The notes under the pieces: model-generated
What the model was told of the DNA's origin: nothing
The model's input: the letters and a program-made list of their open reading frames with translations, nothing else
Database searches by the model: none
DNA from: Acidobacteriota bacterium
Lineage (GTDB): Bacteria; Acidobacteriota; Terriglobia; Terriglobales; Acidobacteriaceae
DNA: 39,342 nucleotides
Direction: 5' to 3'
Assembly (NCBI GenBank): GCA_019241535.1
Contig: JAFAWX010000141.1
Span: forward strand, 1 to 39,342
In this document: piece by piece, positions 510-13,317 of the stretch
Layout of the letters: every line of letters begins with the position of its first letter
Position numbering within the stretch: position 1 is the first letter of the stretch
Position numbers and translations under genes: made by a program

Positions 510-2873
510 TCACTTGTAGATCAGGTACCGCTCACGAATCTGGCGGAATTTCGCCAGGTCATCCTGCCAGTCGAGCGCGATGCGATGAGGGTCGCGGCCA
601 TGCACAATAGCGTCATACACGGCCTGGTTTGCCAGGATCTCCATCATCTTTTCTATGTGAAACTGTTCCGGATAGAGCTTGAAGAGCGCGGCAGCGAGCT
701 CAACCCCCAGTTCTGGAGTGTCGAGAAATTCCCTTCCGGTCAGAGCCAGGTTGACCCCGTGGCAGAGCTGCCCGGAATAGGTGCTTGAGGACGGGGTAAA
801 GGTCGCGGGTATGAAGCGAACGCCCGGTATCTGACGGGCATTGAGAAACTCGGCCAGTTGGCGTCCGTTTACCCAGGGAGCACCCAGCAATTCAAAGGGC
901 GTGTCGGTCCCGCGCCCAACCGAAACGTTGGTGCCTTCGACCAGAGCAACGCCGGGGTAGAGAGTTGCCTGTGTCAGGCTGCGAAGATTGGGCGATGGAT
1001 TCATCCACTCAAGACCGGTCGAGTCGAACCAGTCTCCTCGCATCCAGCCATGCATGGGAATAACCGTGAGCTTGGCACCCACTTTGTGCTCGGCATTAAA
1101 CATTTGCGCTAGCTCGCCTAGAGTCATGCCATGGCGAACCGGAACCGGGCCGTAGTTTACAAAACTCTCGCGGCCGGGCTCTGACATCGGACCCTGGATA
1201 AATACCCCATTGATCGGATTCGGCCTGTCCAGCACCACTAAATCGATGCCTGCTTTGTGCGCGGCCTCGAGAAAATAGCCAACCGTGGTTTCGTAGGTGT
1301 AGAAGCGCACGCCGGCATCCTGCAGGTCAATGACAACCGTGTCTAGCTGCTTCAGAAGGTCGACCGAGGGCCGACGCGATTCGTCGCTTGAACCGTAAAC
1401 GCTATAGACAGAAACGCCGGTGGCGGCATCGCGCGAGTTCCCGATCGTGGTGGTGTCGAGTGTGCCCGTGACCCCATGCTCGGGGCTGAAAATCGCGTTC
1501 AGGTGAACTCCACTGGCATGCGCGAGAAGATCAATCGTGCGATGGCCATTTGAGTCGAAGCCGGTCTGGTTGGTCAGTAGGCCTACCCGTTTTCCCCGTA
1601 AGGGGGCGTAATCTTGAGATTCCAGGACATCGATGCCATTCGTGACCGCCCCGTTGCGGTAGGTTATGTGGTGCTCGGCAACCAGGGCTTCGTTATATCC
1701 GGTAATACTTTTCCAGCGTAGCAACTCCTGTTCTTGCGGCTTCAGTTCGGCGGCCCCTACGACGGCCGTGGCAACCTTCCCGCGCAGGGAAATGGCTGTA
1801 CCTTGCCCGCGGGGGTGAACAGCATTGGTCAGCAGGATCACGTAGGCGGCCGTGGTTGGGTCGATCCATATCGAGGTTCCGGTAAAACCCGTGTGCCCAA
1901 AGGAGCCCACGGGCAGCAGTTCCCCGCGATTTGAAGAGAAAGGGGAGTCAATGTCCCAACCCAGGCCGCGCAGGGTAGGAGCAGTCGGAGGTTGCTGGGG
2001 GGTGCTCATTTTTTCTATGGCTTCGCGCGAAAGCGGTCCTCTTCCATCAAGCAGCGCGCTGGCAAACTTGGCGAGGTCGTCGGCAGTTGAAAACAGCCCC
2101 GCGTGGCCCGCGACTCCACCCATCCTCCGCGCGGTTGGATCATGTACCAACCCCCGCAACATCTGCTGCTTTTCGTCATATTCGGTCGGAGCAATCTGGG
2201 GCAGCCATTCATGTGGCGGCAGGAAGCGGGTGTGGGACATCCCCAGGGGGACAAAGATCTTGTCACGGCAGTAGGAATCGAGGGCAACTCCGCTCACCCG
2301 CTCGACCACTGCGCCGAGCACGATGAAGTTAATGTCGCTGTAGACGAATTTTGTTTCCGGAGGCGCAATGGGGTTGCTGGCGAAAGCCATGCTGTACCCC
2401 AGGTCGCGACCCGACCAGGGGTGAGACAAATCCAGGTCGGGCGGCAAGCCCGAGTAGTGCGTCAAAAGATCGCGCAGGGTGATGTCTGCTTTGCCATTCT
2501 GCGCAAATTCAGGAATGTATTTTGCGACCGCATCGTTCAGGCGCACTTTTCCCTGCTCGAGGAGCTGCATGACGGCCGTTGTCGTCGCTATGACCTTGGT
2601 CAGAGACGCAAGATCGAAGATTGTGTCCGCGCTCATCACCGAACCAGCGGGTTCAAGCGAGCGCTGGCCAAACGCCTTGCGATAGACCACTCGGCCTTCG
2701 TGCCCCACCAGGAGCACCGCTCCCGGGATCTCGTGCTTCTCGATGGCGCTCGCGACAATGTCATCGAGCACCGAAAATCTTTCAGTTTCGCTTTGTGCTC
2801 CTGCCGTGCCGGCGCAAAGCAGGCTAACTGTGCACAGCATCCATAGCAGAGTCCGGCTCGGCGAGTTTCGCAT
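510..2873 (-). CDS. Secreted fusion: AmiE-like serine hydrolase plus NamZ-like exo-N-acetylmuramidase (DUF1343)
   Basis: A protein of 787 residues with a signal peptide (about 1-26, hydrophobic LLWMLCTVSLLCAG, cut near AGA-Q). Residues 30-375 are a beta-lactamase-like serine hydrolase: S90-L-T-K93 nucleophile motif, Y178-S-D, and H327-T-G. Residues 420-787 are DUF1343, with SPEHG at 463-467 and DLQDAGVRFYTY near 516-527. DUF1343 is the NamZ family (GH171), which removes MurNAc from the non-reducing end of peptidoglycan chains. In Bacillus subtilis, amiE (amidase, beta-lactamase fold) and namZ are separate genes in the MurNAc salvage operon; here the two activities appear fused. The frame stays open upstream to 3119, but that extension overlaps the divergent gene and would bury the signal peptide, so I chose the ATG at 2873. 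Domain calls are strong; the amidase activity is inferred, since an esterase or D-amino peptidase role is possible for this fold. Confidence 0.88.
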   Translation of the reverse strand: MRNSPSRTLLWMLCTVSLLCAGTAGAQSETERFSVLDDIVASAIEKHEIPGAVLLVGHEGRVVYRKAFGQRSLEPAGSVMSADTIFDLASLTKVIATTTAVMQLLEQGKVRLNDAVAKYIPEFAQNGKADITLRDLLTHYSGLPPDLDLSHPWSGRDLGYSMAFASNPIAPPETKFVYSDINFIVLGAVVERVSGVALDSYCRDKIFVPLGMSHTRFLPPHEWLPQIAPTEYDEKQQMLRGLVHDPTARRMGGVAGHAGLFSTADDLAKFASALLDGRGPLSREAIEKMSTPQQPPTAPTLRGLGWDIDSPFSSNRGELLPVGSFGHTGFTGTSIWIDPTTAAYVILLTNAVHPRGQGTAISLRGKVATAVVGAAELKPQEQELLRWKSITGYNEALVAEHHITYRNGAVTNGIDVLESQDYAPLRGKRVGLLTNQTGFDSNGHRTIDLLAHASGVHLNAIFSPEHGVTGTLDTTTIGNSRDAATGVSVYSVYGSSDESRRPSVDLLKQLDTVVIDLQDAGVRFYTYETTVGYFLEAAHKAGIDLVVLDRPNPINGVFIQGPMSEPGRESFVNYGPVPVRHGMTLGELAQMFNAEHKVGAKLTVIPMHGWMRGDWFDSTGLEWMNPSPNLRSLTQATLYPGVALVEGTNVSVGRGTDTPFELLGAPWVNGRQLAEFLNARQIPGVRFIPATFTPSSSTYSGQLCHGVNLALTGREFLDTPELGVELAAALFKLYPEQFHIEKMMEILANQAVYDAIVHGRDPHRIALDWQDDLAKFRQIRERYLIYK

Positions 2874-3033
2874 GATTTCCCCGAAGCTCGAATGTACAAC
2901 AATGACCGCGAACCCGATCAAGTTACGGCCGAACGAGGTGCCGCGAGTGCCACTAACCATTCTTTCTACCTGGCAGTAAACTCTTTGCCTTGAAGATGCG
3001 CCGTGGCGCCCGGATAATGTAAGCAAGCCATGG

Positions 3034-4194
3034 TTGTCGCATTTGTTCTCCCGGCACCTCGGAAGCCTGGATTTGAATAGAGCCGGCACATTGGCGTCTG
3101 TCATCTCCGCCGCTGACACTCGCGCTCAGGACGAGGTCTTCGCACGCCCTTTTCAGCTTCTTGAAGAGGGAATTCGGCACAGGGCCTTTCCCGCCGCTTC
3201 GGTGGCAATCTCCTATGCAGGCAGAATTATCGCTTTGAAGGCGTTCGGACGCTTCACCTATGACGAGAACGCCCCCGACGTTACGTTGCAAAGCATTTTC
3301 GATCTGGCATCGCTCACCAAGGTAATCGCCACGACCAGCATGGCGATGATTCTCTGGCAGCGTGGCCGGCTTGACTTGGAGGAACCGCTTGTTAAGGTCC
3401 TGCCGGAATTCGTTTCGGACGACCCTCGCAGGAGGAAAGTTACGATCCGTATGCTGCTCGGGCACAGTTCGGGACTGCCGGCGTATGAAAAGTTGTTTTT
3501 GCGCGCGCCGACGAAAGATGCCCTTCTCGGTGAAGCTTTTAGCGTCGCACTAATCCGTACCCCGGGCACTCACTCCGAATACAGCGATATTGGTTTTATC
3601 CTGCTGGGCTTGGCACTGGAAAGAACGGCCGGCGAACCCCTTGACCGTTTTTGTGACCGGGAGATATTTACTCCTGTCGAAATGAAGGAGACGTCATTTA
3701 ATCCTTCTATGCGATGGCACGGCCGCATTCCCCCGACCTGCGAAGATCGGAGTTTTCGTAAAAGGGTCGTGCAGGCGGAGGTGCAGGATGAAAACGCCAG
3801 TGTCATGGGAGGCATAGCCGGCCATGCCGGCCTGTTCTCAAGCGCGATGAACGTCGCTGTCTTCGCCCAATTGATGCTCGCAGGCGGTGCCCCGATTTTC
3901 ACTCGTGAGGTCATAACCCGATTCTCGCGCCGGGAAAGCTCGCCCGCGGGCACATCGCGAGCTTTGGGATGGGACACGCCATCCGCCCCATCCCAGTCGG
4001 GAAATTGGTTTTCCCCATCCTCGTTTGGACATCTCGGCTACACCGGAACCTCGTTGTGGATTGATCCCGAGCGCGGGCTTTCAATTACTCTGCTGACTAA
4101 CCGCACGTGGCCGGACTGCTCTAACCAGGCGATCAAAGAAGTGCGACCGAGGTTTCATGACGCCGTTTTAGAAGCTTTAAACGGAAAGCGCTGA
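3034..4194 (+). CDS. AmiE-like serine hydrolase (beta-lactamase family), apparently without a signal peptide
   Basis: A protein of about 386 residues in the beta-lactamase/AmpC-like serine hydrolase family. It carries the nucleophile motif in DLASLTKVIATT, a later YSD, and GHLGYTGTS in place of the usual H-T-G. The block around the nucleophile is nearly identical to that of the divergent fusion protein, so the two are paralogues. No ATG occurs before residue 100 in this frame; TTG codons at 3034 and 3043 are the only likely starts, without a clear ribosome site, so the N-terminus is uncertain. No hydrophobic leader is seen, which suggests a cytoplasmic protein. It is followed after 29 bases by murQ, so it probably belongs to that transcript and may remove peptides from imported MurNAc-peptides. 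That role is inferred. Confidence 0.82.
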   Translation: MSHLFSRHLGSLDLNRAGTLASVISAADTRAQDEVFARPFQLLEEGIRHRAFPAASVAISYAGRIIALKAFGRFTYDENAPDVTLQSIFDLASLTKVIATTSMAMILWQRGRLDLEEPLVKVLPEFVSDDPRRRKVTIRMLLGHSSGLPAYEKLFLRAPTKDALLGEAFSVALIRTPGTHSEYSDIGFILLGLALERTAGEPLDRFCDREIFTPVEMKETSFNPSMRWHGRIPPTCEDRSFRKRVVQAEVQDENASVMGGIAGHAGLFSSAMNVAVFAQLMLAGGAPIFTREVITRFSRRESSPAGTSRALGWDTPSAPSQSGNWFSPSSFGHLGYTGTSLWIDPERGLSITLLTNRTWPDCSNQAIKEVRPRFHDAVLEALNGKR

Positions 4195-4223
4195 CGAAAC
4201 ACGTAAATTCAATCGAAATCTCA

Positions 4224-5159
4224 ATGAGGCGCAAAGAACCTCGAAATATCGGCGATCTCGAGTCGCTCGCCACCGAGCAGGCAAATTCGCGGTCGCGAGG
4301 GCTGGACAAGAAATCCTCGCTTGAGATCGCGCGCATAATCAACTCCGAAGATAAGCAGGTGGCGCAGGCCATCGCACCCGCCCTACCCCAGGTTGCGCGC
4401 GCCATCGACTGGATCGCTGAAGCGCTGGCGCACGGCGGCCGGCTCATCTACGTCGGCGCTGGCACCAGCGCTCGCATTGCCGCCCTGGATGCGGCGGAAT
4501 GTCCCCCGACCTTTAACACTCCCCCGGGTCTGGTCCAGTTCGTCGTTGCCGGAGGGTCGAAGGCTCTGGCGGCGAGTCAAGAAGGCAACGAGGATTCACG
4601 GCGGCTCGGTATCAGTGCTATTCGCAAGAAGCGGCCTGGGAAAAAAGATGTGGTCGTGGGCATAGCAGCCAGCGGACGCACTCCCTTCACCGTTGCTGCG
4701 CTCCTCTGGGCGCGCCGCGCGGGAGCACGGACTATCGCCATGACTTCGAATCCCGCTTCTCCGCTGGAAGAAGCAGCCGAAATGAGTATTGTGGTCGAGA
4801 CCGGCCCGGAAGTTGTATGCGGTTCAACCCGCATGAAAGCAGGCACGGCGCAGAAGATGGTTCTGAATATGCTTTCCACCGGCGCCATGGTGCGAATGGG
4901 GTACGTTTATGGCAACCTGATGGTTAACCTTCATCGCAGCAACACGAAACTCGTCGCTCGCTCCATCAGGATTGTCGGGGAGGCTTTAGGGTTGGGAAAC
5001 GCCCGCGCACGGCAGGCTTTGGTCGCCGCAGGCCAGGACGTACCAGTTGCCATCGTCATGGCGAAGACGGGTGTCAGCCGAGCAAAAGCCGAACGAGCTT
5101 TAATGCATGCCAAAGGTCATGTTCGAAACGCGATTGAACTTGCCACCCGAATGCCCTGA
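4224..5159 (+). CDS. murQ: N-acetylmuramic acid 6-phosphate etherase
   Basis: A protein of 311 residues, the usual length for MurQ. It splits the lactyl ether of MurNAc-6-phosphate to give GlcNAc-6-phosphate and D-lactate in the cytoplasm. The SIS-type sugar phosphate motif GAGTSAR is at 78-84, followed by DAAECPPTF with Glu92. The second conserved acid is in EGNEDS (Glu123); these correspond to the two catalytic glutamates described for the E. coli enzyme. The family signature CGSTRMKAGTAQK spans 199-211. The C-terminal helical region (about 250-311) is UBA-like, as is normal. ATG at 4224 lacks a strong ribosome site and lies 29 bases after the serine hydrolase stop, suggesting coupled expression. 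No murR regulator, murP or MurNAc kinase is beside it. Confidence 0.95.
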   Translation: MRRKEPRNIGDLESLATEQANSRSRGLDKKSSLEIARIINSEDKQVAQAIAPALPQVARAIDWIAEALAHGGRLIYVGAGTSARIAALDAAECPPTFNTPPGLVQFVVAGGSKALAASQEGNEDSRRLGISAIRKKRPGKKDVVVGIAASGRTPFTVAALLWARRAGARTIAMTSNPASPLEEAAEMSIVVETGPEVVCGSTRMKAGTAQKMVLNMLSTGAMVRMGYVYGNLMVNLHRSNTKLVARSIRIVGEALGLGNARARQALVAAGQDVPVAIVMAKTGVSRAKAERALMHAKGHVRNAIELATRMP

Positions 5160-11875: not shown

Positions 11876-13317
11876 TCAGCTCGCGGCTACCGTCCTCAAA
11901 TCAGATTTTCGGGCGTACTGACGGACGGCCTCGTCGCCGGAATCGACTACTCGCTGCATGAGCACGGCCGCGATCAGCATGAATAACCCTCCGGCCACAA
12001 CTGCGGCAATCCGGTTGTTGTTGAGCAGGTGGTTCATGATCCAGCCGAAAAACAGGGAAGCGATAATTTCCGGTATGACAATGAAGAAATTGAAAATCCC
12101 CATGTACACGCCCGTCCTCCGGGCCGGCAGGGATCCGGCCAGCACGGCATAAGGAACCGACAGGATGCTGCTCCAGGCAATGCCCACCCCAACCATGGTC
12201 GCGAGCAGCAGAATCTTACTGTGAATAACGCTGACCGATACCAGCCCCGCGCCTCCGCACAAAAGACAGAGACTGTGGGCGTTGCGCCGGCCAACCGCGC
12301 GCGCCAGGCCGGGCAGCACAAACGAGAACAAGAAGCATACCGCTGAATACATGGCAAAACAGATTCCTGCCCACTCAATCCCGCGGGTATAGACGGAAGA
12401 GCTTTGATTGGCGGCTCGGAAGACGTTGTGGGCTACGGCAACGGGAAAGTAAAGCCACATACAATATAGTCCCAGCCAGGTCAAAAGCTGCACTGGCGCC
12501 AGCTGGCGCATGGTCGCCGGCATGTCGGCAATGGCTGACAGGATCTCTCTGGCATTGGCGTTCAGGCCTTTTGTCTTCAGCTTCGCTCGCCTGAACGCCT
12601 CCATATCTTCCGGCGGGTACTCGGCGGTGCTCACAATCGTCCACAGCACGGCAGCGAAAAAGGCAGCCGCACCGATGTAAAACGACAATCGTACTGTGGC
12701 AGGAATGGCTTGCGTATCCCTGCGCCTGCCGACAAATGAAAAAGGTTGGTCAGCATCCACGGTAACGCCGAAGCCACGACCGCGCCCAATCCGATAAAAA
12801 GGCTCTGCATGGCAAAGCCGCGGGTGCGCTGGTTTTCCGGCAGAAGGTCGGCCACAAATGCACGGAACGGTTCCATGCTGATATTGATCGAGGCATCAAG
12901 AACCCACAGCAGGCCTGCGGCCATCCATAGCGCCGAACAGTTGGGCATCAGGAGAAGAGCGAGAGAGCTGAGAATCGCGCCGCTCAGGAAATAAGGACGA
13001 CGGCGCCCGAGCCGCCCCCAAGTGTTATCGCTCGCGTGCCCGATGATAGGCTGCACCAGCAGCCCGGTAAGCGGCGCGGCCAGCCAGAGAATAGGTATCT
13101 GATCCGCACGGGCACCCAGGTACTCGTAAATGGCACTCATATTCGCCATCTGCAGACCCCAGCCAAACTGGATTCCGAGGAAACCGAAGCTCATATTCCA
13201 GATCTGCCAAAAGTTTTGCTGGGGCTTCGTCATAGGGGCGGATTCAGCAGCCTGCGATGATACATCGAATTCGTCAGCGGCAGACAAGTCAGATTCTCCA
13301 GACCTTTCCAGGGTCAT
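11876..13317 (-). pseudogene. MFS sugar transporter (SLC45/GPH-like) broken by one frameshift
   Basis: Two overlapping frames together encode one MFS protein of about 480 residues. The first (from ATG at 13317) gives helices 1 to 5 and the signature [17 protein letters not shown] (93-109) between helices 2 and 3, typical of sucrose/maltose-type cation symporters. Homology ends at LSAGAG (residue 200). It continues in the next frame with DTQAIPATVRLSFYIGAA through helices 6 to 12 to the stop at 11876. The break falls on CCC at 12718-12720 (GGG on the coding strand); one extra G would restore the frame. A single base loss in a homopolymer could be a real recent mutation or a sequencing error, and the rest is well preserved. 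The two frames are not two separate genes. The kinase gene upstream is divergent. Confidence 0.85.

Follow-up and report, generated by a model that had tools for sequence, protein, structure and literature searches.

A stretch of 39,342 nucleotides from an Acidobacteriota bacterium of the family Acidobacteriaceae (assembly GCA_019241535.1, contig JAFAWX010000141.1, positions 1 to 39,342; hereafter the window) encodes a secreted chain of 787 amino acids in which an S12 beta-lactamase-like serine hydrolase is joined to a full NamZ/GH171 domain pair. We consider it probable that this fusion is a periplasmic two-enzyme protein of peptidoglycan amino-sugar salvage, and that in one clade of relatives the importer has been joined to it as well, giving a triple chain of sodium:solute symporter (SSF), S12 and NamZ; within this reading, we infer which reaction the S12 domain catalyses, what the symporter carries and what the fusion might bring. 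The two-part fusion is an already known architecture, and the triple chain is an interesting extension of it. For the triple chain we lean slightly towards a scenario in which the outer half of N-acetylmuramic acid (MurNAc) salvage, that is, a sodium-coupled importer, a peptide-removing enzyme and a MurNAc-releasing enzyme, would have become one polypeptide with an internal signal peptide when a stop codon that separated adjacent genes of an operon was lost. A second, independent event of this kind would have taken place in another family (one locus), and the product would work either tethered or as a processed polyprotein.

The two-part fusion and its distribution

The fusion gene lies on the minus strand (510..2873) and runs uninterrupted from an ATG at 2873 to a TGA at 510-512. 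An alternative, longer frame with a GTG start extends to 3119; the ATG is favoured because a signal peptide comes directly after it. This signal peptide (residues 1-26; 2796..2873, on the minus strand like all features of the gene) was judged by eye from the sequence, has an AGA/Q-type cleavage site and was modelled with a pLDDT below 50. The S12 domain occupies residues 36-355 (1809..2768; PF00144, E 1.3e-71) and is separated by an inter-domain linker of low confidence (residues 384-407; 1653..1724; pLDDT <50) from the NamZ_N domain at residues 430-633 (975..1586; PF07075, E 1.2e-76), which is followed by the NamZ_C domain at residues 638-786 (516..962; PF20732, E 2.7e-46). All three Pfam matches are near full length and far above the curated cut-offs, with 257.1 bits against 26.9 for PF07075 and 158.5 bits against 25 for PF20732.

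Residue conservation was evaluated in an alignment of 31 rows, consisting of the window protein and 30 chosen loci. In the S12 domain, S90 and K93 of the catalytic motif S90-L-T-K93 (2595..2606) are invariant, as are Y178-S-D180 (2334..2342) and H327-T-G329 (1887..1895). We take Y178-S-D180 to stand at the YxN-type position, with Asp where that type has Asn, and H327-T-G329 to be the KTG-type triad. In the NamZ_N domain, P464, E465 and G467 of the motif P464-E465-H466-G467 (1473..1484) are invariant and H466 is nearly so, E465 presumably being the catalytic Glu. The AlphaFold2 model of the fusion has a mean pLDDT of 80. Its closest solved relatives, on which phmmer and Foldseek agree, are the DUF1343 proteins 4k05 and 4jja, and the comparison with 4k05 gave a TM-score of 0.89 by target length at 34% identity; the N-terminal half of the model matches S12 esterases and the AmpC fold. 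The original prediction, made from the letters of the window, had claimed a signal peptide, an S-L-T-K serine hydrolase and a full DUF1343 domain in 787 residues, and translation, Pfam and fold all agree with it. The fusion is the only match to PF07075 in its own genome. Because the same fusion is present in other genomes, an assembly error is very unlikely.

A search for the same domain order, which had been proposed along with that prediction, revealed that it is common in the window's family and mixed with unfused NamZ elsewhere in the phylum. NamZ_N was present in 84 of 100 family genomes and in 314 of 396 genomes of the phylum Acidobacteriota, that is, in most of those sampled, where it is often joined to the enzyme that would be expected to act just before it. 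S12 and NamZ shared one frame in all 20 of the top-scoring loci fetched from the family (L009-L028). Of the 30 loci that scored highest in the phylum search (L049-L078), six have S12-NamZ in one frame and 24 have NamZ but no S12, and ten other families of the phylum also contain S12-NamZ frames. Outside the phylum, the fusion was probed in plasmids, where 12 of 1070 matching records covered at least 80% of the query: four from Burkholderiaceae in one piece and eight from haloarchaea in two pieces. Two plasmid regions of each group were opened, and S12-NamZ was a single coding sequence in both Burkholderiaceae regions, whereas S12 and NamZ were adjacent separate genes in both haloarchaeal ones. 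These haloarchaeal pairs and the 24 unfused loci of the phylum weigh against a necessary role of the fusion, as do one genome of the family whose sole NamZ is unfused (G060, L042) and four family genomes with an unfused copy besides the fused one (L037, L038, L040, L046; L044, which is cut by a contig end, was excluded from this count); the fusion is not essential. Overall, the two-part fusion is not rare, is ordinary for the window's family, and represents an architecture that is already in print.

Several of these loci have further neighbours. In plasmids of Burkholderia savannae and Cupriavidus metallidurans (L188, L189), a putative glycoside hydrolase, with DUF4015 in L188, and a polysaccharide deacetylase lie next to the one-chain S12-NamZ. 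In L190, L191 and L192, from plasmids of Halorussus and Haladaptatus, NamZ and GH3/NagZ are clustered, and two of the three clusters also contain AnmK and an S12 hydrolase. In addition, a GH3-S12 fusion (L096:6167-9109, plus strand) lies divergent from the S12-NamZ fusion of the same locus.

Chains that add a sodium:solute symporter

Eight long frames of the family (L029-L036) have about 500 extra residues, and in seven of them these residues form a symporter of the SSF family, in frame with the rest; L032, a triple by frame length, was left out, its SSF sitting in another frame. Pfam confirmed the SSF domain PF00474 together with S12 and NamZ in the four chains scanned (L029, L030, L033, L036), the order in one frame being sodium:solute symporter, then S12, then NamZ. 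The SSF part of L029 scored 157.3 bits for PF00474 against a cut-off of 22.8 and 242.7 bits for TIGR00813 against 184, and that of Terriglobus roseus scored 224.4 bits for TIGR00813 against the same 184. Two other kinds of candidate were rejected. First, frames of 1258-1441 amino acids had been considered as NagZ-AmiE-NamZ (GH3) fusions, and Pfam gave SSF at their N-terminus. Second, the long frames of L080, L082 and L086 have Arg/Pro-rich N-terminal parts without a Pfam match and were read as open but non-coding.

A scan of genomes with triple chains as queries gave 79 loci, 56 of which hold the three parts in one frame. The rest consisted of 5 SSF-S12 loci that stop at a contig end or are frameshifted, 4 in which SSF and S12-NamZ occupy separate frames, 4 with the two-part fusion alone and 10 with SSF alone. 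The 56 triples include two with a NamZ split by a frameshift (L131, L162) as well as loci truncated at the end of a contig (L110, L136, L139 and L158 among them), and their frames, measured from stop to stop, span 970 to 2088 codons, the upper lengths including open sequence before the start. The hosts are Granulicella, Edaphobacter, Terriglobus and Bryocella. When an unbroken frame of at least 1258 amino acids covering SSF and S12 up to its midpoint or beyond was asked for, a triple-type frame was found in at least 45 of 300 family genomes, the genome of the window being within the 300. The genome sets overlap (L029 lies on the contig of L099, and L031 on that of L110), and their counts are not additive. 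Among the literature matches listed, no report of an SSF-S12-NamZ chain was found, which is no proof of absence.

To place the triple chains, a tree of S12-NamZ with 102 rows was built by a quick search with SH-aLRT support only, after removal of rows in which S12 or NamZ was short. All 55 of its family triples formed a single clade (SH-aLRT 99). A further triple, L079 (G460), belongs to a different family within the class. Its SSF differs clearly (98 bits) and its place in the tree is elsewhere; the tree needs two changes in all. It omits L001, L002, L029-L032, L110, L152 and L156; hence neither L030 nor the L031/L110 triple is represented. The nearest rows outside the triple clade are two-part fusions, some of which have an SSF gene directly upstream that overlaps in another frame (L048, L149). 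For another of these rows, L197 (from the genome of L026), SSF and S12-NamZ lie in the same frame with one stop codon between them, and the same arrangement was found in L195 and L196, which are outside the tree; these three loci might represent read-through or a pre-fusion state. Such one-stop and overlapping neighbours are what a fusion by stop loss would leave behind. Four of the loci (L118, L129, L158, L172) are labelled Verrucomicrobia or Rhodanobacteraceae; the first three of them fall among Granulicella in the tree, so that all four labels are probably wrong.

The junction between the symporter and the enzymes has a constant layout. In 56 of 56 triples, a hydrophobic, signal-peptide-like segment follows the last SSF helix, and a short K/R-rich stretch precedes that segment (mean 3.4 K/R and 0.2 D/E, counted without a shuffle control). 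The layout in L079 is the same as in the family triples: SSMKKKSHVIVAVLSIVLISVPGVRAQ. The simplest reading is that the segment is the retained signal peptide of S12-NamZ, which would still carry the enzymes to the periplasm. The model of the T. roseus chain (residues 40-927, mean pLDDT 76) has its best fold match in the sodium-coupled sialic acid symporter 5nva, and a reading of its helix list gave 13 SSF helices plus a 14th at the junction. The symporter superfamily has its N-terminus outside, and with this orientation the T. roseus loops carry 13 positive charges inside versus 7 outside, which counts as modest support.

In the triple-chain clade, the presumed importer is itself part of the chain, and the apparent old signal peptide of S12-NamZ, kept between symporter and enzymes, would bring the latter to the periplasm. 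It may either stay in the membrane as a 14th helix, which would tether the enzymes, or be cut by signal peptidase. The prediction of that helix is weak, with a pLDDT of 51-57 at residues 501-520 of the model, which weighs against this reading. If it is cut, the triple chain would be a mere polyprotein that yields a normal symporter and a soluble S12-NamZ, and the fusion would matter for expression rather than for coupling, a possibility to which we give an even chance. A broad signal-peptidase-like motif was present at the junction in 53 of 56 triples versus 0.447 in shuffles, and a narrow one, [AVSTL]x[AG]Q, in 23 of 56 versus 0.086; the two tests used slightly different stretches and were designed after the sequences had been viewed, and the rows are related, so that the shuffle rates serve as a yardstick and not as a probability. 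The relatives that hold both genes in frame with one stop between them (L195-L197) also fit a polyprotein. However, even the broad motif is absent in 3 of the 56, the motif is weak, simple inheritance of a recent signal peptide among related sequences would look alike, and a chain that remains attached is equally compatible with these data. The cytochrome b-c1 polyprotein FbcH of Bradyrhizobium japonicum is a precedent, although a literature search for FbcH gave no match. In it, too, a membrane protein continues into an internal signal peptide and then a periplasmic domain; the proteins are unrelated, and cleavage is known there, whereas it is a conjecture for the triple chains.

Gene neighbourhood, substrate and chemistry

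The window contains murQ, encoding MurNAc-6-phosphate etherase, on the plus strand at 4224..5159 (TIGR00274, 360 bits against a cut-off of 302; 47% identity to E. coli MurQ), with murA as the next gene. The MurNAc-salvage reading is well supported because murQ starts 1.35 kb from the fusion. The salvage role suggested by the original prediction is upheld by this neighbour and by the SSF, murQ, GH20 or nagA genes that adjoin the fusion in relatives. A second S12 protein, divergent from the fusion and 38% identical to its S12 domain, is encoded at 3034..4194 on the plus strand. The paralog match at 3109-4230 was reported with internal stops and extends beyond 4194, where the frame ends; that frame is open over 2980-4194. 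By eye, neither the copy of this protein in the window nor those of five relatives (L039, L041, L042, L045, L161) show a signal peptide, and the protein near murQ is therefore probably cytoplasmic. The minus-strand position of the fusion, its murQ neighbour, the S12 paralog without a signal peptide and the transporter fusion in relatives all go beyond that first reading. Elsewhere in the window, at 11876-13317 on the minus strand, two overlapping frames resemble, by eye, the halves of one MFS-type transporter, perhaps frameshifted.

Further genes of this kind occur in the relatives and elsewhere in the genome of the window. A co-directional GH20 gene lies upstream of the triple chain in 36 of the 45 triple loci with at least 5 kb of upstream sequence, a nagA-like gene in 22 and both in 20. 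In T. roseus, the upstream genes encode a GH20-family protein and NagA (TIGR00221, 295 bits against 225.65). Ten triple genomes, chosen from the 56 for their names, were checked; each has murQ with two matches, and the triple chain is the sole NamZ in nine of them. In other lineages, SSF, murQ and S12-NamZ adjoin one another (L043, L098 and L193), the fusion of L043 being frameshifted. In the genome of the window, an SSF symporter that adjoins uvrC shares 60% identity with its counterpart in a triple chain, and AnmK and NagZ are encoded by overlapping frames (L187:3085-5426, minus strand).

On the basis of these genes, a route can be proposed. An exo-glucosaminidase (GH20 or NagZ) would expose terminal MurNAc, the S12 domain would remove the stem peptide from it, and the NamZ domain would hydrolyse the MurNAc-beta-1,4-GlcNAc bond (GlcNAc, N-acetylglucosamine) and free MurNAc. 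A MurT-like SSF symporter may then import the free sugar, a kinase would phosphorylate it, MurQ would open the product to GlcNAc-6-phosphate, and NagA would deacetylate the latter. Several observations count against this route. None of the six SSF matches in the genome of the window is within the window, and no murQ was seen in the flanks (up to 6 kb) of the 56 triple loci. In addition, a MurNAc kinase was not found in the window's genome, where matches to PF01869 are confined to one 1219-amino-acid frame and were not counted as a MurK-type kinase, and AnmK is specific for anhydroMurNAc.

The fragments that feed such a route might come from the cell's own turnover, so that the system would recycle rather than harvest foreign walls. 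We regard this as conceivable, with some doubt. The genome of the window does have murQ, AnmK and NagZ, as in recycling pathways. On the other side, GH20 genes and an importer accompany the module in relatives, and haloarchaea, which are not known to have murein, carry AnmK, S12, NamZ and NagZ in one plasmid cluster. The presence of this cluster in hosts without murein of their own implies that the module can serve scavenging alone, and haloarchaea with such NamZ clusters may feed on bacterial walls.

The original prediction had called the serine hydrolase AmiE-like. The S12 domain and its motifs stood, while the amidase type did not follow from them: the nearest named NCBIfam model is PBP4B, which is not an amidase, and the match is below its cut-off. 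The domain has the SxxK motif (S90-L-T-K93) and the KTG-like H327-T-G329, is fused to NamZ and is linked to murQ. We somewhat favour an amidase. The domain could instead trim stem peptides, acting as a DD-carboxypeptidase or endopeptidase of PBP4B/AmpH type, in which case NamZ would need another amidase. PBP4B (162.8 bits) and AmpH (76 bits) are indeed the best named NCBIfam matches, the domain is 32% identical to E. coli YfeW, and the E. coli murQP cluster includes PBP4B (yfeW). We still hold this alternative to be unlikely: both models are far under their cut-offs, the PBP4B equivalog NF002968 requiring 385 bits, and NamZ acts on peptide-free MurNAc ends, which an amidase partner fits better. 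Moreover, in B. subtilis, amiE and ybbC/namZ belong to one cluster (PMC5061867). That the domain is an esterase of family VIII type, acting on some unrelated substrate and joined to NamZ by chance, is far less probable again. Several solved S12 relatives are esterases; however, the S12-NamZ order turns up again in ten further families of the phylum, in triple form in an eleventh, and in Burkholderiaceae, and the fusion gene keeps company with murQ.

Comparison with known systems

The activity of NamZ was reportedly established in a J Biol Chem study of 2021 (100519), which is said to describe NamZ as mainly a Bacteroidetes enzyme. A 2008 survey of serine proteases lists, as one among 254 S12 proteins, YP_439122.1 with a DDPept-DUF1343 architecture, that is, the same two Pfam domains in the same order as in the window; its table labels the protein cell wall biosynthesis, and no discussion of it was found in the available part of the survey (PMC2605481). 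The main text of the survey contains 0 occurrences of 'SSF' or 'symporter' and no transporter fusion (PMC2605481). It also gives Glyco_hydro_3-DDPept fusions of Bacteroides and Salinibacter, in which S12 is joined to a glycosidase too, but the partner is GH3 (PMC2605481). In the literature searched, we did not find the function of the two-part fusion argued.

For the importer, a close parallel is MurTKQ of Tannerella forsythia, where the importer is encoded in an operon with murQ, MurT being a separate protein there (PMC5790795 and PMC10465942). PMC5790795 describes MurT as the MurNAc importer of the murTKQ operon and a member of the sodium symporter superfamily; elsewhere, the same paper puts MurT in the major facilitator superfamily, which is unfavourable to a MurT-type SSF. 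The MurT-type likeness of the SSF symporters is based on gene context, MurT being taken by description. A chain of transporter, hydrolase and glycosidase would allow a direct test of whether fusion hands a scavenged sugar from enzyme to importer, and may add a new example to the membrane polyproteins of bacteria that carry a signal peptide internally. The cultured carriers Terriglobus roseus DSM 18391, Granulicella rosea DSM 18704 and Bryocella elongata DSM 22489 allow such testing.

In the murQ-murP-yfeW cluster of E. coli, an S12 protein likewise adjoins murQ; the importer there belongs to the phosphotransferase system (PTS), and the genome of E. coli, one of 14 control genomes, gave no match to PF07075. 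A close counterpart of the locus is the murQRP-amiE-nagZ-ybbC cluster of B. subtilis, and the parallel drawn with it in the original prediction agrees with PMC5061867. There, AmiE, NagZ and NamZ (ybbE, ybbD, ybbC) together with MurQ, MurR and MurP likewise form a salvage set of S12, DUF1343/NamZ and murQ (PMC5061867). The likeness to AmiE is drawn from the gene set and the S12 motifs, AmiE being taken by description. B. subtilis has separate genes and the PTS importer MurP, whereas the two enzymes encoded in the window form a single chain, with an SSF symporter, in some relatives joined to them, as the candidate importer.

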